From Gemmatimonadota bacterium (GTDB lineage: Bacteria; Gemmatimonadota; Gemmatimonadetes; Gemmatimonadales; GWC2-71-9), in NCBI GenBank assembly GCA_003222055.1, contig QHUT01000087.1:1-37094 (forward strand): 37,094 nt of DNA, written 5' to 3'. The stretch's first letter is position 1; every line of letters begins with the position of its first letter. The notes beneath the pieces were generated by a model. It saw only the letters and a program-made list of their open reading frames with translations, was not told the DNA's origin and ran no database searches. Positions 27,601 to 37,094 of the stretch are shown here, one piece after another. The position numbers and the translations under genes were made by a program.

Positions 27601-29233
27601 CCGCGGTAGCCAGGAACCGGGGCGGTCGCCGTAGCTTCGTCGCCTGCTCGAAGGCATACGCGAACTTGATCAGCCCGGCCTCGCTCCACGGGCGCCCCAC
27701 GAACGACAGCCCCACCGGCAAGCCCGCCACGTAACCCATCGGCACCGTCACATGGGGGTAGCCGGCCACGGCCGCCGGGCTGGAAAAGCTGCCGCCACCC
27801 CCCGGGTCCCCGTTCACCAGGTCGATGAGCGAGGGCGGGCCGCCCGTGGGCGCGATCAGCGCGTCGAGCTGGTGCTCGGCCATCACCGCGTCGATTCCCT
27901 GGGTGCGCGCCAGCAGGTGGTTCTTGTCGAGCGCCCGCAGGTAGTCCTGATCGGTGAGCGGACCTTTGGCCTGAGCCTGCGTGAAGATCTCCTGCCCGAA
28001 GTAGGGCATCTCCTGTCCCCTGTTGCGGTCGTTGAACGCGATCAGGTCCGCCAGCGTCTTCGCGCTCGCGCCCGGCGCCCACTCCGCGAGGTACCGGTTC
28101 AGATCCGCCTTGAATTCGTAGAGCAGCACGGCGAATTCACTGTCGTCGAACTGGCCCGCGGTGGCGATGTCGGCCGGATCGACAATCACCGCTCCGAGCC
28201 GCTTGAGCGCATCGATGGCGCTCTCCATCAGGGCGTCGGCGCCGGGGCTGTAGCCCATGAAGTGCGAGCGGCACACGCCGAGCCGCGCGCCCTTGAGCCC
28301 GGCGGGGTCGAGCGACGCGGAATAGTCCGAAGCGGAGTGGCCAGCGCTCGCCGCCGTCGCCTCGTCGCGGGGATCCACGCCTGTGAGCGCCCCGAGGAGC
28401 ACCGCCGCGTCCGCGACGGTGCGGGCCATGGGACCAGCCGTGTCCTGATTGTGTGCGATGGGGATGACCCCGGCCCGGCTCACCAGGCCCAGCGTGGGCT
28501 TGATCCCCACGATCGAGCAGCAGGTGGAGGGTGACACGATGGAACCGTCGGTCTCCGTGCCGATGGCGGCCGCGCACAGACTCGCCGCTACGGCGACCGC
28601 GGACCCCGAGCTCGACCCGGACGGCGTGCGATCGAGGGCGTAGGGGTTGCGGCATTGGCCCCCGCGCCCGCTCCAGCCGCTCGACGAGTGTGTCGAGCGG
28701 AAGTTGGCCCACTCGGACAGATTCGCTTTCCCCAGCAGCACCGCGCCCGCCCCGCGCAGCCGCTCCACCAGGAACGCGTCGCGTGGCGGCGACACGCCGA
28801 CGAGCGCGAGCGAGCCCGCCGTGCTCTGCATGCGATCCCGAGTCGCCACGTTGTCCTTCACCAGAATCGGGATGCCGTGCAACGGCCCCCGCGGTCCCTT
28901 GGCCTTGCGTTCCGCGTCGAGCGCCGCGGCCTGCGCGAGCGCGTCAGGGTTGGTCTCGAGCACCGAGCGGAGCCCGGGTCCCTTCTTGTCCATCGCCTCG
29001 ATGCGCTGCAGGTACACCACGGTGATCGAGCGGGACGTGTACTTCCCCGATGCCATCCCCGCCTGCAGCTCCGCGATGGTCGCGTCCTCGAGCTCGGGAA
29101 GGGCGGCAGGACTCACCCCGGGCGCAAGCCCGGGGATCAGCAGGCCGCCACTGACCCCGCGCGCGAGCGCGGGGATCGCGCTCATCCCGGCGTACCCCAG
29201 AAACGTCCGGCGATCGATACTCGGTCGGCTCAT
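27587..29233 (-). CDS. Amidase signature family hydrolase with Tat-type leader
   Basis: A 548-residue amidase. The N-terminus has a twin-arginine-like D-R-R-T-F-L-G followed by an Ala/Gly-rich stretch, suggesting export in folded form. The Ser-cisSer-Lys triad is K126 in ILVKDN, S208 within the GSSSGS loop (205-211) and nucleophile S231 in TETDGSI. The family cleaves linear amides, including indoleacetamide, peptide amides and nylon oligomers, and the substrate here is unknown. AGAGAGG before the ATG supports the start. The last three residues and the stop codon are encoded by the second copy of the hairpin repeat shared with tag. Confidence 0.92.
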   Translation of the reverse strand: MSRPSIDRRTFLGYAGMSAIPALARGVSGGLLIPGLAPGVSPAALPELEDATIAELQAGMASGKYTSRSITVVYLQRIEAMDKKGPGLRSVLETNPDALAQAAALDAERKAKGPRGPLHGIPILVKDNVATRDRMQSTAGSLALVGVSPPRDAFLVERLRGAGAVLLGKANLSEWANFRSTHSSSGWSGRGGQCRNPYALDRTPSGSSSGSAVAVAASLCAAAIGTETDGSIVSPSTCCSIVGIKPTLGLVSRAGVIPIAHNQDTAGPMARTVADAAVLLGALTGVDPRDEATAASAGHSASDYSASLDPAGLKGARLGVCRSHFMGYSPGADALMESAIDALKRLGAVIVDPADIATAGQFDDSEFAVLLYEFKADLNRYLAEWAPGASAKTLADLIAFNDRNRGQEMPYFGQEIFTQAQAKGPLTDQDYLRALDKNHLLARTQGIDAVMAEHQLDALIAPTGGPPSLIDLVNGDPGGGGSFSSPAAVAGYPHVTVPMGYVAGLPVGLSFVGRPWSEAGLIKFAYAFEQATKLRRPPRFLATAVLTP

Positions 29234-29274
29234 GGGCCCTCTCTCGCGTGAATGACAGGAGCTTGGCAGGCGGC

Positions 29275-29282
29275 TAAACTTG
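29275..29282 (+). promoter_or_regulatory. TAnnTTTG-like box before the DDAH-like gene
   Basis: TAAACTTG lies 28 nt upstream of the ATG at 29311, with one mismatch to TAnnTTTG. It sits in the short divergent region shared with the amidase gene. Confidence 0.3.
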
Positions 29283-29310
29283 CTGCCACCTTTGCGCGAC
29301 GGCCAGCACG

Positions 29311-30192
29311 ATGCGGGTGGGAGGACAGTCAGAGGTCGGGAGGCTCATCTCGGTCGCGGTCAAGCGCGCCGGCGACGCGTTCGGGAGCGAGGTCGAAGTC
29401 GATCGCCAATGGCGCGACCTGGGCTACACGGCACGGCCCGAGCTCGCTGCCGCCACGCCCGAGTACCAGCGGTTTCTCGCGCTCCTCGGCGCCACGGGCG
29501 TCGAGGTGCTGTGCTTCCCACCCGACGAGAGTGTCGGTCTCGACTCGCTGTACGTCCGGGACGCGTCGATCGTGTGCGACGGCGGCATGATCATCTGCAA
29601 CATGGGGAAGCCGCAGCGTCGCACCGAGCCGGCCGCGCAGGAGGCGGCGCTCCGCGCCGCCGGCGTGCCGATTCACGGCCGGATCACCGGCGACGGCCGC
29701 CTGGAGGGGGGAGACGTCTGCTGGATCGACCAGCGCACGCTGGCGGTCGGCCGCGGCTACCGGACCAACGACGCCGGCATCCGCCAGCTGCGTGACCTGG
29801 TGGCGCCGTACGTGGACGAGGTCATCGTCGTGGCGCTGCCCCATTGGCACGGGCCGGACGACGTGTTTCATCTCATGTCGATCGTGAGTCCCATCGACCA
29901 CGATCTCTTCCTCGTCTACGCACCGCTCCTCCCGGTGCCGTTCCGCCAGGCCCTGCTCGCGCGGGGCATCGAGCTGCTGGAGGTGCCGACCCCCGAGTTC
30001 GAGACGCTGGGCTGCAACGTGCTCGCGATCGCCGGGCGCGAGGTCATGATGCTCGCCGAGAACCCGGTGACCCGGGCCCGGCTGGAACGCGCGGGCGTGA
30101 CGGTGCACGAGTTTGCCGGGCGTGAGATCTGCCTCAAGGGGGGCGGCGGCCCGACCTGCCTCACCCGGCCGCTGGCGCGGCAGGCCAGGTAA
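29311..30192 (+). CDS. Dimethylarginine dimethylaminohydrolase / arginine deiminase-like enzyme
   Basis: A 293-residue guanidine-modifying enzyme of the pentein fold. Visible active-site residues are D84 in YVRD, E132-G-G-D135, H187 in DDVFHLMS and nucleophile C283 in GGGGPTCLTRPL. GGQSEVGRL at the N-terminus is also typical. Members hydrolyse arginine or N-methylated arginines to citrulline through a covalent S-alkylthiouronium intermediate; related amidinotransferases pass the amidino group on. The length and compact C-terminus fit DDAH/citrullinase types better than full arginine deiminase (inference). It is divergent from the amidase. A small lipoprotein gene follows 56 nt later. Confidence 0.88.
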   Translation: MRVGGQSEVGRLISVAVKRAGDAFGSEVEVDRQWRDLGYTARPELAAATPEYQRFLALLGATGVEVLCFPPDESVGLDSLYVRDASIVCDGGMIICNMGKPQRRTEPAAQEAALRAAGVPIHGRITGDGRLEGGDVCWIDQRTLAVGRGYRTNDAGIRQLRDLVAPYVDEVIVVALPHWHGPDDVFHLMSIVSPIDHDLFLVYAPLLPVPFRQALLARGIELLEVPTPEFETLGCNVLAIAGREVMMLAENPVTRARLERAGVTVHEFAGREICLKGGGGPTCLTRPLARQAR

Positions 30193-30215
30193 CCCCACGG
30201 CACCGCCGCCGGCCT

Positions 30216-30223
30216 TATATTGG
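30216..30223 (+). promoter_or_regulatory. TAnnTTGG promoter-like box before the small lipoprotein gene
   Basis: TATATTGG is an A/T-rich island in a G+C-rich gap, 25 nt before the ATG at 30249. A good Shine-Dalgarno site, GGAGG, lies at 30239-30243. Confidence 0.35.
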
Positions 30224-30248
30224 CACAACCCCGCTCTCGGAGGCCCGC

Positions 30249-30446
30249 ATGACGAGGACCATCCTGGCAGCCGTAGGGTTGATCGGGCTGGCCGCCTGTG
30301 GCGGTGGCAGCCACCAGACCACGAAGACCAGGGCGGCAACGCCGCCGAAGACCGAGTCCCGGGCGGCTACGGCGACCTCGCAGAAGCGCAAGGGTGCCGC
30401 CCGACGCGACACCACCACGCAGCGGAACCCCCTCACCAACCGCTAG
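30249..30446 (+). CDS. Small lipoprotein (65 aa), Thr/Arg/Lys-rich
   Basis: A very short but convincing gene. GGAGG lies five bases before the ATG and an A/T-rich promoter-like box lies further upstream. The leader ILAAVGLIGLAAC ends in a textbook lipobox with Cys17. The mature part, about 49 residues, is a hydrophilic, low-complexity tail rich in Thr, Lys, Arg and Ala (for example TKTRAATPPKTESRAAT). It would be anchored to a membrane as a flexible basic tail. No domain is recognised. It is convergent with the TPR gene of the stressosome operon, with 10 nt between the stop codons. Confidence 0.75.
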   Translation: MTRTILAAVGLIGLAACGGGSHQTTKTRAATPPKTESRAATATSQKRKGAARRDTTTQRNPLTNR

Positions 30447-30456
30447 CGGGCGACGC

Positions 30457-31748
30457 TCAAGCGGACATCGCCCGCAGCTCCGCGTCGACGCGCTCCCGCT
30501 CGACTGCTTCGCCCAGCGAGTCAAACAGCTCGCGGGCGCGCTCGAGGTAGGCGCGAGCTTCTTCTTGCTGGCCGAGCCGGCTGCGGAACAGCCCGTAAGC
30601 GTGGTACACCTGCGCTTCCGCGGCCGGTGAGCGCTCCACCGCACGGGCGAGCTCGATCGCCTGCTCGAAAAAGACGAACCCGGTCTCGTCCTGCTGAGCG
30701 CCGCGCAGCTTCCCCATCAGCGTATACGTCTGGGCCAGCCGGCCGGCCAGATTCGCCGCGATCGCCACCTGCTCCGCCCGCCGCAACTCCCCTTCGGCGT
30801 CGAGCCAATGCTCCATCTCGAGATCGAGCTCCGCGAGGTTCAAGCGGATCGCCAGTTCCAGCCCCGGGGCCCGGGGCGCTCGCTGCGCCCAGGCCAGCGC
30901 CTCCCGGTACGCGGCGGCGGCGGCGCTGTGCCTCCCCAACTGGGCGTCGAGCCGTCCCTGGGCGTCCAGCACGCGCGCCATCTCGTCGGCGCGTCCCGAC
31001 GCCTCGAACCGCTCGCGCGCGCGCCGGAGATAATCGCCGGCGCTCGCGAGATCGCCCTGCTTCCGAGCCAGCACGCCGAGCCGGCGCTCCAACCGCCCCA
31101 TTTGCCCCTCGTCACCCGACGCCTCGGCGAGGCGCAGCCCGCGGCTGTACCATGCCTGGGCGCCCCCCCACTCGCCCTGCGCGCGCGCCACATCCCCCAA
31201 TCCCTCGCATGCGGCGATCGTGCCCGCTTGATCGAACTCCGCCTCGGCCAAGGCGAACGCGCGCTGGAACTGACGCGCGCCCTCGACATACTGCCCGAGT
31301 CGGAGACACAGATACCCGAGGGCGCGCAGCGCTTCCACTTCGGGACGGCGATCCTGGAGCGCTTCCGCCACGCTGAGCGCCAGCTCATACCACGCCCGCG
31401 CCTGCGCCAACCGGCCCACCTCTTCCTCGAGCCGGCCGCCCCGGACGAGCGCGCCCACCACGCCCGCGGAGTCGCCGCGTTGCCGGGCTTCCAGTGCCTC
31501 CACGTACGTCTTGCACAGCACGTGCACGTGCTCGGCGATGCGATGCAACGCCTGCGGCAGACGGCGCCGCAGCTCGTCGGGGTCGACGCCGCGCTTGCCC
31601 AGCGTGAGGTATGGGCCGGAGCTCGACCACAAGGCCCGCTCGTCGGGGCGCGCAATGGAGATCAACAGCGCGCGCAGCGGGGCCAGGGCCTCGAGCTCGG
31701 GCATGAGCTCCAGCGCTTTTTCGACGCGCACCGGAGGGAGCGGGGAGC

Positions 31749-31752
<4 letters not shown>
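30457..31752 (-). CDS. TPR-repeat protein, last gene of stressosome/sigma-54 operon
   Basis: A 431-residue all-helical soluble protein. After an N-terminal region of about 100 residues with no recognised fold, it contains consecutive tetratricopeptide-like helix pairs (for example [32 protein letters not shown] and [19 protein letters not shown]). TPR arrays bind partner proteins. The GTG at 31752 overlaps the TGA of the enhancer-binding protein gene (GTGA), so the two are made together. I infer that it binds and modulates that activator or RsbT. No signal peptide or enzymatic motif. It resembles the TPR sensor halves found fused to regulators in some bacteria, but here the parts are separate. 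Confidence 0.85.
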
Positions 31753-33163
<1,411 letters not shown>

Positions 33164-33167
<4 letters not shown>

Positions 33168-33805
33168 CCCCTCGTCCGGGTGCCGCCCCGATAGCGAGCG
33201 ACCAGCACGAGGGCATCATCCGTGCCCTTGCCATGTCGGCTCAAGATCTGCTCGGCGAGTTGTTGCGGTGGTGTCTCGAACTGCAGCCCGTCGCTGAACC
33301 CTTCGCGGATCCCGTCGGTGGCGAAGATCAGCACGTCGCCGGCGGCGAGCGGCACGACCTGGGCGCGGACCTGTGGCAACTCGGAGCCGACGATGCCGCC
33401 GCGCGTGACGAGGCCGACGCGCGTCGGATTGGCCGACGGCGCCCCATCGCCGCGGAACAGCATGCACTCCACGTTGCCGACGCCGGCCCACGTCAGCGCG
33501 TTCTGCTGCCCGTTGGCGAACGCGAGACTCATCACCACGCCCCGCGAGCCCTTGAGCGCCCAGTGGCAACGCTGCAGCAGCGCCAGCACCGATTCGGACG
33601 CGTGCTCGTCGAGCGTGGTCACGGCCTTGCGCGCCGCGGTGGCCGCGTCCGCGCCGTGGCCGAGTCCATCCACGACCGCGATCAGCACGCCGGTGGACAC
33701 GGGCTTGACCAGGTGCAGGTCCCCGGACTGAGTCTGGCCGGGGAGCGCCGACGATGCGACACCCCAGGCGATCAGCGTCGACGCGTCCACGGACGCCTCA
33801 GGCAT
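33164..33805 (-). CDS. rsbX: RsbX-like PP2C/SpoIIE-type serine phosphatase
   Basis: A 213-residue SpoIIE/PP2C phosphatase with no sensory or RsbT-binding N-terminal region. It is therefore like RsbX, which resets the stressosome by dephosphorylating RsbR and RsbS, and unlike RsbU. Metal-binding aspartates are D46 in VVDGLGHG, D164 in [10 protein letters not shown] and D196/D197 in [12 protein letters not shown]. The start ATG at 33805 overlaps the end of rsbT by 8 nt (ATGCCTGA), and its stop overlaps the start of the enhancer-binding protein gene (ATGA). The gene order R-S-T-X matches known stressosome modules. The assignment to RsbX rests on size and position. Confidence 0.88.
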
Positions 33806-34208
33806 TCATGCGCCGCCATTTCTTCATCGTCACGGTGGTGCCCTTCCCCGCGTCGGAGACCACGTCGAAGTCGTCCATCAGGCGGCGGGCGCCGGGCAAC
33901 CCGAGACCCAGGCCCCCGGATGTGGAGTAGCCGTCCTGCATGGCGCGGGGGACGTCGCGGATCCCGGGCCCCTGGTCGCGCGCCACGACGACGACGCCTT
34001 GACGGTCGCCGTTCGCCACGACGCTGAGGGCGATTTCGCCCCGCTTGGCGTACATCAGGATGTTGCGCGCGATCTCGGAAATGGCGGCCGCGATCACCGT
34101 CTGGTCGCCGCTCGAGAATCCCGCCTCGGCGGCCAAGTCGCGCCCGCGCTGCCGCGCGGTTACGACGTCGACATCGGCGGTGATGGGGATGAGCAAGTCG
34201 TCAGCCAC
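33798..34208 (-). CDS. rsbT: RsbT-type anti-sigma/switch serine kinase
   Basis: About 136 residues, close to RsbT of Bacillus subtilis (133). The GHKL ATPase motifs are the N-box SEIARNI (E45, N49), the G1 box DQGPGI (78-83) and the G2 box GGLGLGL (98-104). In stressosomes RsbT phosphorylates RsbS and RsbR and is then released to bind a downstream target. I prefer the GTG at 34208, which overlaps the rsbS stop by 8 nt (GTGGCTGA), the same style as the next junction. The ATG at 34256 would add 16 residues and a 56-nt overlap. No RsbU-like partner is encoded nearby, so its target is open. Confidence 0.92.
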   Translation of the reverse strand: MADDLLIPITADVDVVTARQRGRDLAAEAGFSSGDQTVIAAAISEIARNILMYAKRGEIALSVVANGDRQGVVVVARDQGPGIRDVPRAMQDGYSTSGGLGLGLPGARRLMDDFDVVSDAGKGTTVTMKKWRRMNA

Positions 34209-34593
34209 GGTCGAGGCGTCCCGGTCCGCGGTCGATTCGGAGCTGGGTCTGGACATTGAGGAACGCCAGGCCTTCTTCCAGGTCGAGGGCGGTCGACACG
34301 CCCTTGAGCGTCAGCCCGAGCTGCACCATCGCGAACGCCACCTCGGGCTGGATTCCCACGATCACCGTCTCCGCCCCGCGCAGCCGGGCCATATGCGCGA
34401 TGTCCCGCAGGGTGCGGACGGCGAAGGAATCCATGACGTCGAGCGCCGTGACGTCGACGATGACGCCCCGTGCCCGAAACCGCCCCACGCGCTCGATCAA
34501 CGCCTCGCGCAGCTGCGACAGATCGGCATCGGTGAGCGCGGACTGGATGGACGCGATCAGGTAGTGACCCTGCTTCAGAATGGGAACTTCCAC
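34201..34593 (-). CDS. rsbS: RsbS-type stressosome STAS protein
   Basis: A 130-residue single STAS domain. The phosphorylation site is S56 in DVMDSFAVRTLRDIA, corresponding to Ser59 of B. subtilis RsbS. It forms the stressosome core with RsbR and holds RsbT until phosphorylated. It lies 31 nt after the rsbR stop and overlaps rsbT. The C-terminal tail beyond residue about 115 (RIDRGPGRLDRG) is longer than usual and lies over the possible upstream start of rsbT. Confidence 0.92.
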   Translation of the reverse strand: MEVPILKQGHYLIASIQSALTDADLSQLREALIERVGRFRARGVIVDVTALDVMDSFAVRTLRDIAHMARLRGAETVIVGIQPEVAFAMVQLGLTLKGVSTALDLEEGLAFLNVQTQLRIDRGPGRLDRG

Positions 34594-34624
34594 GCGCCCT
34601 CCGTCGACGGAGTGGGGTGCCGAC

Positions 34625-35533
34625 TCACGCCTTCGGGGTCAGCTCTTCCAGTGGCACAACCTTGTACCCCAGCAGCCGCTCTGCCTCCTCGATGCCTCCC
34701 TGGAGATCGCCCACCGTCGCCATCTCGCTCAAGTCGACCCCGATCGTCACGAGCGTCTGGGCGATTTCCGGCGAGAGACCCGTCACGATGACCGTCGCGC
34801 CCAACAGCCGCGACGCTTCGACCGTCTGCACCAGGTGGTTGGCGACGTTCGAGTCCATCGCCGCGACACCCGTGATGTCGATGACGACGACTTTGGCGCG
34901 GTTGGTCCGGATGGCCCGCAACAGCTGCTCGGTGAGCTGCCGCGCGCGCTGCGGATCGATGACGCCGATGATCGGCAAGATGAGCAGCCGCTCGCGCACC
35001 TGCAACACCGGCGTCGACAGCTCGCGGATCGCCTCCTGTTGCTGGCGAATGATGCGCTCGCGCTCCTGTACGAAGCCCACCGCCACCGTGTTCGCGATCC
35101 GGTTGGCGGCCGGCTCGTAGGCGTCGAGGATGCGGTTGAGCTTGTCGAAATCTTCGTGGTACTTGCCGAACAGGGAGCGGGCGAGCACGTCGCGCAACAG
35201 CAGCACGATCCCGACCACTTCGTGGGTCTCGACCCCTCGCGGGATGATGCGCTCGGACAGGTTGCGCGCGTAGGCCTGCAGGGCTTCGAACGTCCCCGTC
35301 TCCAGCGCTTCGACGTAGTTGTCGTACACCGAGGTCGCTTCGGCGAAGATTTCCTCCTCAGTCATCGCCGTGAGCAGTTGGGCGCGCGTGATGCGCCGCG
35401 CCCATTCCTCGCGCAACTGGGTTCGGTTCTGCCGGAGGTGCGCCACCAGCTCGCGCAGCAGCGCCGCGGTGGATTCCGTCTGTGCTTGGGGGTCGGGCAG
35501 CGGCGACTGTGCGTCTTTCCCTTTGGTGGCCAT
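34625..35533 (-). CDS. rsbR: RsbR-type stressosome sensor protein (N-terminal helical sensor + STAS)
   Basis: A 302-residue protein. The N-terminal half (about 20-165) is helical, like the sensory domain of RsbR paralogues, followed by a linker helix. The C-terminal STAS domain (about 175-290) starts with STPVLQVRERLLILPIIG. The two phosphosites of B. subtilis RsbRA, Thr171 and Thr205, correspond to S228 in AAMDSNVANHL and T260 in SPEIAQTLVTIGV. I see no haem or flavin signature, so the sensed stress is unknown. It is the first gene of the R-S-T-X-activator-TPR operon. GAGGAG lies 8 nt before the ATG, and a -24/-12 sigma-54 promoter lies 42 nt upstream. Confidence 0.93.
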   Translation of the reverse strand: MATKGKDAQSPLPDPQAQTESTAALLRELVAHLRQNRTQLREEWARRITRAQLLTAMTEEEIFAEATSVYDNYVEALETGTFEALQAYARNLSERIIPRGVETHEVVGIVLLLRDVLARSLFGKYHEDFDKLNRILDAYEPAANRIANTVAVGFVQERERIIRQQQEAIRELSTPVLQVRERLLILPIIGVIDPQRARQLTEQLLRAIRTNRAKVVVIDITGVAAMDSNVANHLVQTVEASRLLGATVIVTGLSPEIAQTLVTIGVDLSEMATVGDLQGGIEEAERLLGYKVVPLEELTPKA

Positions 35534-35575
35534 GGCTGGCGCTCCTCGCCCGGTCGAATGTTGCTGCGGCGCAAC

Positions 35576-35592
35576 AGCAAGGCTAGTGCCAA
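35576..35592 (-). promoter_or_regulatory. Sigma-54 (-24/-12) promoter of the stressosome operon
   Basis: Read on the minus strand the site is TTGGCAC-TAGCC-TTGCT: the invariant GG and GC are exactly 10 nt apart, and both half-sites match the consensus TTGGCAC-N5-TTGC(A/T). The start of transcription would be about 12 nt downstream, giving a leader of about 32 nt with GAGGAG at 35547-35542 before the rsbR ATG. The operon encodes its own sigma-54 activator, which suggests autoregulation. The large upstream region leaves room for enhancer sites. Confidence 0.75.
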
Positions 35593-35797
35593 CTTGTTGG
35601 AGCGGCTTGACTACTGTAACTAGTGCTGCTGAAATGCCTTACAAAGCGACTCACCGTACGAGGATGGCGTCCGTGCAACAGTTCAGGGCGCGCGGTTTCA
35701 GCATAATGCACAAAAAAAAGGCGCAGGGGAGCGAGCCACCACCGGGGCCCACTCGCCGCCGGCGCGGCGCAGTGGACGCAATCCGCGAATGGTCAGC

Positions 35798-36070
35798 TCA
35801 GTTGGCCCGCTTCCCCGCGTGCATGTCCGTGTCACGTCGTGGCGCGCCGTGTTGCGGCACCCACGCTGCCATGGGTCCCATCGCAAGACGGATGCCGCGC
35901 GCATTGACCGATCTGTGTTGTGTCGAGCGCGACGCGGCGAGCGGAATGTGGTCGGAATGCAGCATCATGCGGCATCGGCAGTACGGTGCGGTCGCACCCA
36001 CGCCACGAAGAGGAGAGCGCCGCGGGGAGCGGCGTGCGGTCCGCTCCCCGGCATGCGCTGCATCAGTCAT
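35798..36070 (-). CDS. Possible small Arg-rich protein (90 aa), doubtful
   Basis: A perfect AGGAGG (36083-36078) sits 7 nt before the ATG at 36070, the best ribosome-binding site in the window. The frame runs 90 codons and ends 265 nt upstream of rsbR. The product is rich in Arg, Ala and His, with no hydrophobic segment or known domain. Third-position G+C is clearly lower than in neighbouring genes by eye, which argues against a long-conserved gene. It begins 66 nt after the epimerase stop codon and could be a small co-transcribed gene, a leader peptide or chance. Confidence 0.28.
   Translation of the reverse strand: MTDAAHAGERTARRSPRRSPLRGVGATAPYCRCRMMLHSDHIPLAASRSTQHRSVNARGIRLAMGPMAAWVPQHGAPRRDTDMHAGKRAN
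36023..36050. terminator. 10-bp perfect hairpin, possible factor-dependent terminator
   Basis: CGGGGAGCGG (36023-36032) and CCGCTCCCCG (36041-36050) form a perfect 10-bp G+C-rich stem with an 8-nt loop. It lies about 90 nt after the epimerase stop on the minus strand. There is no T-run directly behind it, so it is not a classical intrinsic terminator. It also overlaps the doubtful small frame. Confidence 0.35.
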
Positions 36071-36136
36071 TCCCTGACCTCCTGGTTAGCACACTGTTGC
36101 GACGGCTCACCTTGCTGACTTGGGCGGCGCCGGACT

Positions 36137-37094
36137 CTAGCCCGCGCCGAGTGGTTGCGGAATCGCGATCGCGCGTCGCGGCGCATGTGGCGGCGTCGCC
36201 GCCAACGGGCCGTCGACGTCGAACCGCTCGTCCGCGCAGACGACACGGGCGATCCGCTCGGCGGCGCGCCCGTCCCACCGCTCGATGACCGGTCGCGCGG
36301 GCGAGCGCTGAGCCAGGGCCCGCTCCGCCCCCGCGAGGATCGCGTCGCGTTTGGGAAGCACCAGCCGGTTCGTGCCGTGGGTGCAGGTGATCGGACGCTC
36401 GGTGCTGGGCCGCACCGTGAGACACGGCACGCCGAGAAACGACGTCTCCTCCTGGAGCCCGCCCGAGTCGGTCAGGACCAACGCGGCGCCCGCCACGAGG
36501 CTGAGCATCTCCAGATAGCCGAGTGGCTCGAGTATGCGCAGCCCGTCGGCGTCCGGGACCCGGAGTCCCTGCGACTCGATGCGCTGCCGTGTCCGGGGGT
36601 GCATCGGGAACAGCACGGCCACGCGCTGCGCCAGCCGCTTGAGCGCCTGCACTAGCTCCCGGAGCACCACAGGATCGTCGACATTGGCCGGTCGGTGGAG
36701 CGTCACTACCGCAAACTGGTCACCGCTCACGCCGTGGCGCGCCGGCGCCTCGAGGGCGATCGCCTGCGGCAAGGCCCAGGCGAGCGTGTCGATCATGACA
36801 TTCCCGACGAAGTGCATCCGCTCAAGCGCGATCCCCTCACCCGCGAGGTTGACGGCGGCGTCGCGCGACGGCAGGAACAGCAGGTCCGACAGCCGGTCCG
36901 TGACCACGCGGTTGATCTCCTCGGGCATCGTCCAGTCGCCGCTGCGCAAGCCGGCTTCCACGTGACCGACGCGCACACCGAGTTTGGCCGCCACGAGCGC
37001 GGCGGCGAGCGTGGAGTTCACATCGCCGTAGACCAGGAGCAGGTCCGGCCGGAGCTCGACCAGGATGGGCTCGAGTCGCTGCATCACGTCGGCG
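36137..37094 (-). CDS. wecB: UDP-N-acetylglucosamine 2-epimerase, non-hydrolysing (5' truncated)
   Basis: The frame is open to the right edge of the window, so about 80 N-terminal residues are missing. The visible GTG/ATG at 37087 and 37084 lie inside the protein (before QRLEPILVELRPDLLLVYGDVNS). Family motifs are GHVEAGLRS, PEEINRVVTDRLSDLLF, VTLHRPANVD, TDSGGLQEE and RPSTERPIT-x-x-x-GTNRLV, which build the UDP-GlcNAc site. The enzyme makes UDP-ManNAc for surface polysaccharides. The 311 or so visible residues include the whole C-terminal Rossmann domain. It is transcribed toward the stressosome operon but separated from it by about 600 nt. Confidence 0.93.
   Translation of the reverse strand, partial: ADVMQRLEPILVELRPDLLLVYGDVNSTLAAALVAAKLGVRVGHVEAGLRSGDWTMPEEINRVVTDRLSDLLFLPSRDAAVNLAGEGIALERMHFVGNVMIDTLAWALPQAIALEAPARHGVSGDQFAVVTLHRPANVDDPVVLRELVQALKRLAQRVAVLFPMHPRTRQRIESQGLRVPDADGLRILEPLGYLEMLSLVAGAALVLTDSGGLQEETSFLGVPCLTVRPSTERPITCTHGTNRLVLPKRDAILAGAERALAQRSPARPVIERWDGRAAERIARVVCADERFDVDGPLAATPPHAPRRAIAIPQPLGAG

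Follow-up and report, generated by a model that had tools for sequence, protein, structure and literature searches.

The rsbRSTX stressosome operon of a Gemmatimonadota bacterium is very likely transcribed from a sigma-54 promoter. Taken as a whole, it is a probable case of an autoregulated operon, served by an NtrC-type activator from its own genes whose activity would be set by the stressosome. The analysed window, 37,094 nucleotides in length, makes up one complete contig in a draft genome of 3.69 Mb, the close relatives of which are soil Gemmatimonadota assemblies.

The rsbR operon and its promoter

All genes of the operon lie on the minus strand. The first one encodes an rsbR-like stressosome protein of 302 aa (34625–35533) with a GAGGAG ribosome site before the ATG, a STAS domain and a weak RsbRD_N domain, the match to the latter being just under the cut-off. 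It is followed by genes for an rsbS-like single-STAS protein (34201–34593), an rsbT-like HATPase serine kinase (33798–34256, exact start uncertain), a SpoIIE/PP2C phosphatase in the rsbX position (33164–33805), a sigma-54 activator (bEBP) of 472 aa (31749–33167), and, as the last cistron, a TPR protein (30457–31752) whose gene overlaps the activator stop codon. The gap between rsbR and rsbS is 31 nt, and from rsbS on the listed reading frames overlap; upstream of rsbR, a UDP-GlcNAc 2-epimerase gene in the same direction ends about 600 bp before it. RsbR (N-domain plus STAS), RsbS, RsbT, and RsbX, the gene set of an RsbRSTX stressosome, are thus encoded in one operon, and the activator, counted as the fourth cistron in the original prediction, is actually the fifth, after the SpoIIE/RsbX-type phosphatase. 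The genes rsbU, rsbV, rsbW, and sigB of a sigma-B-type module are not found downstream; the activator and TPR genes are there instead.

The -24/-12 element TTGGCACTAGCCTTGCT was located on the minus strand at 35592–35576, with GG at 35590–35589 (-24), GC at 35578–35577 (-12), and ten bases between them. Both the exact GG-N10-GC spacing and the distance of 42 nt from the last base of the motif (35576) to the rsbR ATG (35533) were read again and agree with the original prediction; the predicted transcription start of the operon is A at 35565. The element agrees at each specified position with the published sigma-54 consensus YTGGCACGRNNNTTGCW, as quoted in PMC5874634, the sole exception being G after CAC. 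The zero-mismatch pattern TGGCAC-N5-TTGC has a single match in the window, at rsbR, the expectation from base composition being about 0.07 per window and about 1e-4 per given 100-nt upstream stretch. No sigma-70-like promoter was found in 35520–36140, and no Rfam RNA matched at the rsbR promoter.

In the genome-wide scan, the motif was not over-represented: ten exact matches were observed (nine of them outside predicted coding sequence, according to heuristic ORF calls) versus about seven expected from composition, and the count was also below that of the reversed control. Being that close to chance, the number proves nothing and was dropped as evidence, so that the position and the conservation of the element carry the case.

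A single copy of rpoN (PF04552, E=1.7e-63) is encoded in the genome, and each of the 70 relatives with a completeness of 90% or more has the gene; hence, the objection that sigma-54 itself could be absent fails. There is also a second version of the locus, contig C77 of the same assembly (G000 C77:1-7281, locus L177), syntenic with positions 28750–36030 of the window at 88% identity (blast). It was considered as a paralogous second rsb locus and rejected: given the synteny and the single copy in a related genome, the assembly appears to mix two close populations, and C77, instead of stemming from a gene duplication, is most likely an allele from the related population that ended up in a mixed bin.

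The element is present in 17 out of 17 Gemmatimonadota loci with rsbRSTX and the activator in one operon, as the pattern GG-CAyTA-N3-TT-GC 54–135 nt before rsbR, mostly 54–68 nt (135 nt in L044/L180). In the alignment GG, CA, TA, TT, and GC are invariant and the flanks have mostly diverged; in L044, where the spacer is TACGT instead of TAGCC, the GG, TT, and GC are retained. Otherwise the TAGCC spacer hardly varies, a conservation beyond the needs of sigma-54 that hints at an extra constraint; the conserved block runs on into the palindrome described below. The exact promoter 15-mer occurs in 14 out of 101 relatives, always at rsbR, plus one extra match.

The canonical element is absent from 64 rsbR loci of other lineages. 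The rsbR loci without an in-operon activator, from Acidobacteria, Ignavibacteria, Rokubacteria, Nitrospirae, Proteobacteria, and other Gemmatimonadota, have no canonical element at protein identities of 83–92%; a degenerate match in L082 is of the kind that chance gives in a set this large. The sole counter-example is the planctomycete locus L050, an operon with an activator and a pair of sites spaced by 32 bp and no good -24/-12 element. Since the promoter carriers form one family, their co-occurrence with the activator does not represent many independent events.

Several side observations were made in the course of this comparison. RsbR proteins of this type (L032–L111) are 83–92% identical between soil and groundwater genomes of many phyla; so high a value is unusual in a sensor protein and suggests strong constraint or wide transfer. 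Sigma-54-like promoters were seen before orthologous membrane-protein genes in L194 (G007 C59), where the promoter is the exact rsbR 15-mer, and L006 (G000 C83), the next gene in both resembling, as judged by eye, uracil-DNA glycosylase. An identical sigma-54-like TGGCACCGCTCTTGC is found at three separate places (L002, L007, L009 on contigs C8, C84, C94), and two of the copies precede paralogous small-protein genes that share the conserved stretch ALVLSEQARRYL...FMGCMIG.

The activator and the sequences around the promoter

The activator consists of a pseudo-receiver, an AAA+ domain with GAFTGA, and a Fis-type HTH domain. The GAFTGA and Walker motifs are near-invariant in 18 orthologs, as is the HTH domain, and this make-up is that of an NtrC-type enhancer-binding protein. 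The recognition helix HRNTLTRK belongs to the Fis/NtrC class, and none of the genome's other activators with a readable C-terminus showed RNTLTRK (two were unreadable).

For the N-terminal domain, a receiver fold is predicted (mean pLDDT 80), with matches to receivers and CpaE-type receiver-like domains and a Pfam Response_reg score under the cut-off. The acidic pair, the acceptor Asp, the Thr/Ser, and the Lys of phosphorylated receivers are all replaced, and thus, judging from these residues, switching of the activator by receiver phosphorylation is unlikely. No RsbU-N-like domain was detected in the two N-terminal stretches scanned, those of the TPR protein and the activator. In G008 (L173/L041), the activator frame extends to 837 aa, which suggests either a frameshift or that the activator and TPR genes are fused.

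Two 17-bp enhancer-like sites of the form YGC-N11-GCR lie upstream of the promoter on the minus strand: site 1, CGCCTTTTTTTTGTGCA, at 35707–35723 (centre about -150) and site 2, CGCCCTGAACTGTTGCA, at 35674–35690 (centre about -117). Their centres are 33 bp apart, that is, about three helical turns, and they match the 17-bp NtrC box TGCACCAnnnTGGTGCA (PMC8743547) in length and outer triplets. In the orthologs, the centres fall at -149 to -152 and -116 to -120, respectively, although some copies miss one specified letter and one member is too short for the outer site; when other centres were tried in these upstream regions, the fit was clearly poorer. Such a pair at fixed spacing looks as expected for an enhancer. 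The strict pattern of the pair has 18 matches in ten genomes of the genus, and only at rsbR promoters is it followed by TGGCAY...TTGC 83–85 nt further on. In this genome, the combined pattern of sites and -24/-12 element is found only at the two rsbR alleles, and its matches in other genomes are near the reversed-pattern control; other targets of the activator may bear weaker or single sites.

A palindrome, TGTTGC-GCCGCA-GCAACA (35559–35576), spans -11 to +7 and hence overlaps the promoter stretch that must melt. Its arms are conserved in the orthologs and its middle is variable; in L044, the arms are changed with the pairing retained. In this genome, only the two rsbR alleles bear the palindrome in its exact form. 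The simplest guess for this candidate operator is that it serves as a repressor site. A 5'-leader hairpin was considered and rejected, since with the start at 35565 the left arm would lie outside the transcript.

Just upstream of the enhancer-like sites, a GC-rich imperfect hairpin followed by a T-run (35726–35816, core 35776–35796, minus strand) is conserved, not in all orthologs: the version with the invariant TGACCATNCGNGGATTGCGT core is present in nine out of 17 loci. RNAalifold shows compensatory changes in six base pairs, Rfam has no matching family, and a search of 61 genomes gave the core at no locus other than that of rsbR.

A proposed circuit and its alternatives

With rpoN in the genome, the promoter and the activator gene conserved together, and two NtrC-type sites upstream, we consider sigma-54 control of the stressosome operon, as originally predicted, to be well supported. 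That the operon-encoded activator works at this promoter is probable, the co-conservation, the sites, and the distinctive recognition helix all being in its favor. In the proposed circuit, the sigma-54 promoter would transcribe rsbR-rsbS-rsbT-rsbX-activator-TPR; the activator, acting as an NtrC-type enhancer-binding protein, would bind the two sites (about -150 and -117), loop to the sigma-54 polymerase at -24/-12 and open the promoter with ATP. The operon would then be autoregulated, and we favor, with moderate confidence, the positive sign of the feedback.

The activity of the activator would be set by the stressosome and not by receiver phosphorylation. At rest, RsbT would be held by RsbR/RsbS; under stress, it would phosphorylate RsbR/RsbS, go free, and act on the pseudo-receiver or on the TPR protein, either of which would occupy the place of RsbU, and the SpoIIE-type phosphatase would reset the system. 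That RsbT is the signal to the activator seems somewhat likely. G057 and G379 carry a stand-alone unit that consists of an rsbT-like gene, the activator, and the TPR gene and adjoins an ftsK-like gene (L181, 8680–12026; L182, 598–3971). The genes rsbR, rsbS, and rsbX are missing from it, an arrangement suggesting that RsbT is what the activator/TPR pair works with. These units have no -24/-12 promoter, and G057 additionally holds a separate rsbRSTX. In the other phyla read, the genes after rsbX encode, as judged by eye from the reading frames, a protein resembling a kinase and a regulator of the receiver type. In its strongest form, the proposal is that the stressosome controls sigma-54 directly, freed RsbT switching a phosphorylation-blind activator, which would have its own operon as the main high-affinity target; we regard this self-amplifying switch as a tentative possibility. 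If true, it would yield a self-amplifying, possibly bistable stress switch in place of the sigma-B cascade as well as of the two-component output.

The most serious alternative retains sigma-54 and reverses or doubles the sign of regulation: the activator or another protein could shut the promoter by binding the -11/+7 palindrome, so that the operon would behave as a homeostat. The palindrome is conserved over the melting region, and nowhere but at the rsbR locus does the genome have it in exact form; however, the activator-type sites and the -24/-12 element are both maintained, and the palindrome half-sites are oriented opposite to the upstream sites, making it unlikely that one HTH dimer binds both. 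We consider negative or two-way autoregulation possible and rather unlikely. It is less probable still that the rsbR promoter is sigma-54-dependent and driven by some other enhancer-binding protein, the activator of the operon serving other targets only. About 13 further Sigma54_activat proteins, allelic copy included, are encoded in the genome and could do so, but the promoter co-occurs with this particular activator gene, and the NtrC-like pair suits the RNTLTRK helix, missing from the other activators read (the two unreadable ones aside).

Explanations that dispense with sigma-54 fare worse. The nearly invariant TAGCC spacer and the continuity of the block with the palindrome might be expected of an operator or a 5'-leader element that only resembles -24/-12, yet the spacing and the consensus are exact, rpoN and a linked activator are present, the enhancer-like sites lie at the right distances, and with the spacer of L044 changed to TACGT the GG, TT, and GC are kept; this reading is very improbable. 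We regard as negligible the possibility that so short a motif arose by chance in a GC-rich window of 37 kb: about seven exact matches per genome are indeed expected, but the element recurs at the corresponding position of 17 upstream regions that have diverged, and the expectation for any given 100-nt upstream stretch is about 1e-4. The reading of a sigma-54 promoter served by the activator of its own operon is the one that we consider most probable.

Comparison with known systems

Known stressosome outputs are sigma-B, c-di-GMP, or two-component systems. To our knowledge, little is settled about the role of RsbT where sigma-B is missing, and the operon offers a concrete candidate for its output: a sigma-54 activator from the same operon, lacking the phosphorylation residues, with likely binding sites in front. 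The circuit would connect two main switches of bacterial transcription that are controlled by partners or by ATP, and, being small and self-contained, is suited to rebuilding in a laboratory host. We found no description of a stressosome operon linked to sigma-54 in the open literature; two key output-module reviews (cited in PMC9237108) are outside that coverage, and the priority of the circuit is accordingly not certain.

The rsbRSTX modules of Bacillus (sigma-B) and Vibrio have the same order of rsbR, rsbS, rsbT, and the PP2C phosphatase gene, followed by a linked output gene. In Bacillus, RsbT leaves the stressosome and activates RsbU through binding (PMC12143880), and in Vibrio, the output consists of two-component proteins (PMC9237108). 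In contrast, the operon described here has no RsbU, RsbV, RsbW, or SigB and no histidine kinase; its output slot holds the sigma-54 activator and the TPR protein, and the operon has a sigma-54-type promoter.

An unusual output of a stressosome RsbT has a parallel in Moorella, where, as far as the work is cited in PMC4976288 and PMC12143880, RsbT controls a diguanylate cyclase. According to these citing accounts, the output there is c-di-GMP synthesis via an RsbU-type N-terminal domain, whereas none was found here in the two N-terminal stretches scanned.

On the side of transcription, the operon resembles the NtrC family and the glnA-type enhancers: an AAA+ domain with GAFTGA, a Fis HTH domain, and two 17-bp YGC-N11-GCR sites upstream of -24/-12. 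Unlike in that family, the phosphorylation residues of the retained receiver fold are lost, and the partner of the activator would be RsbT rather than a sensor kinase.
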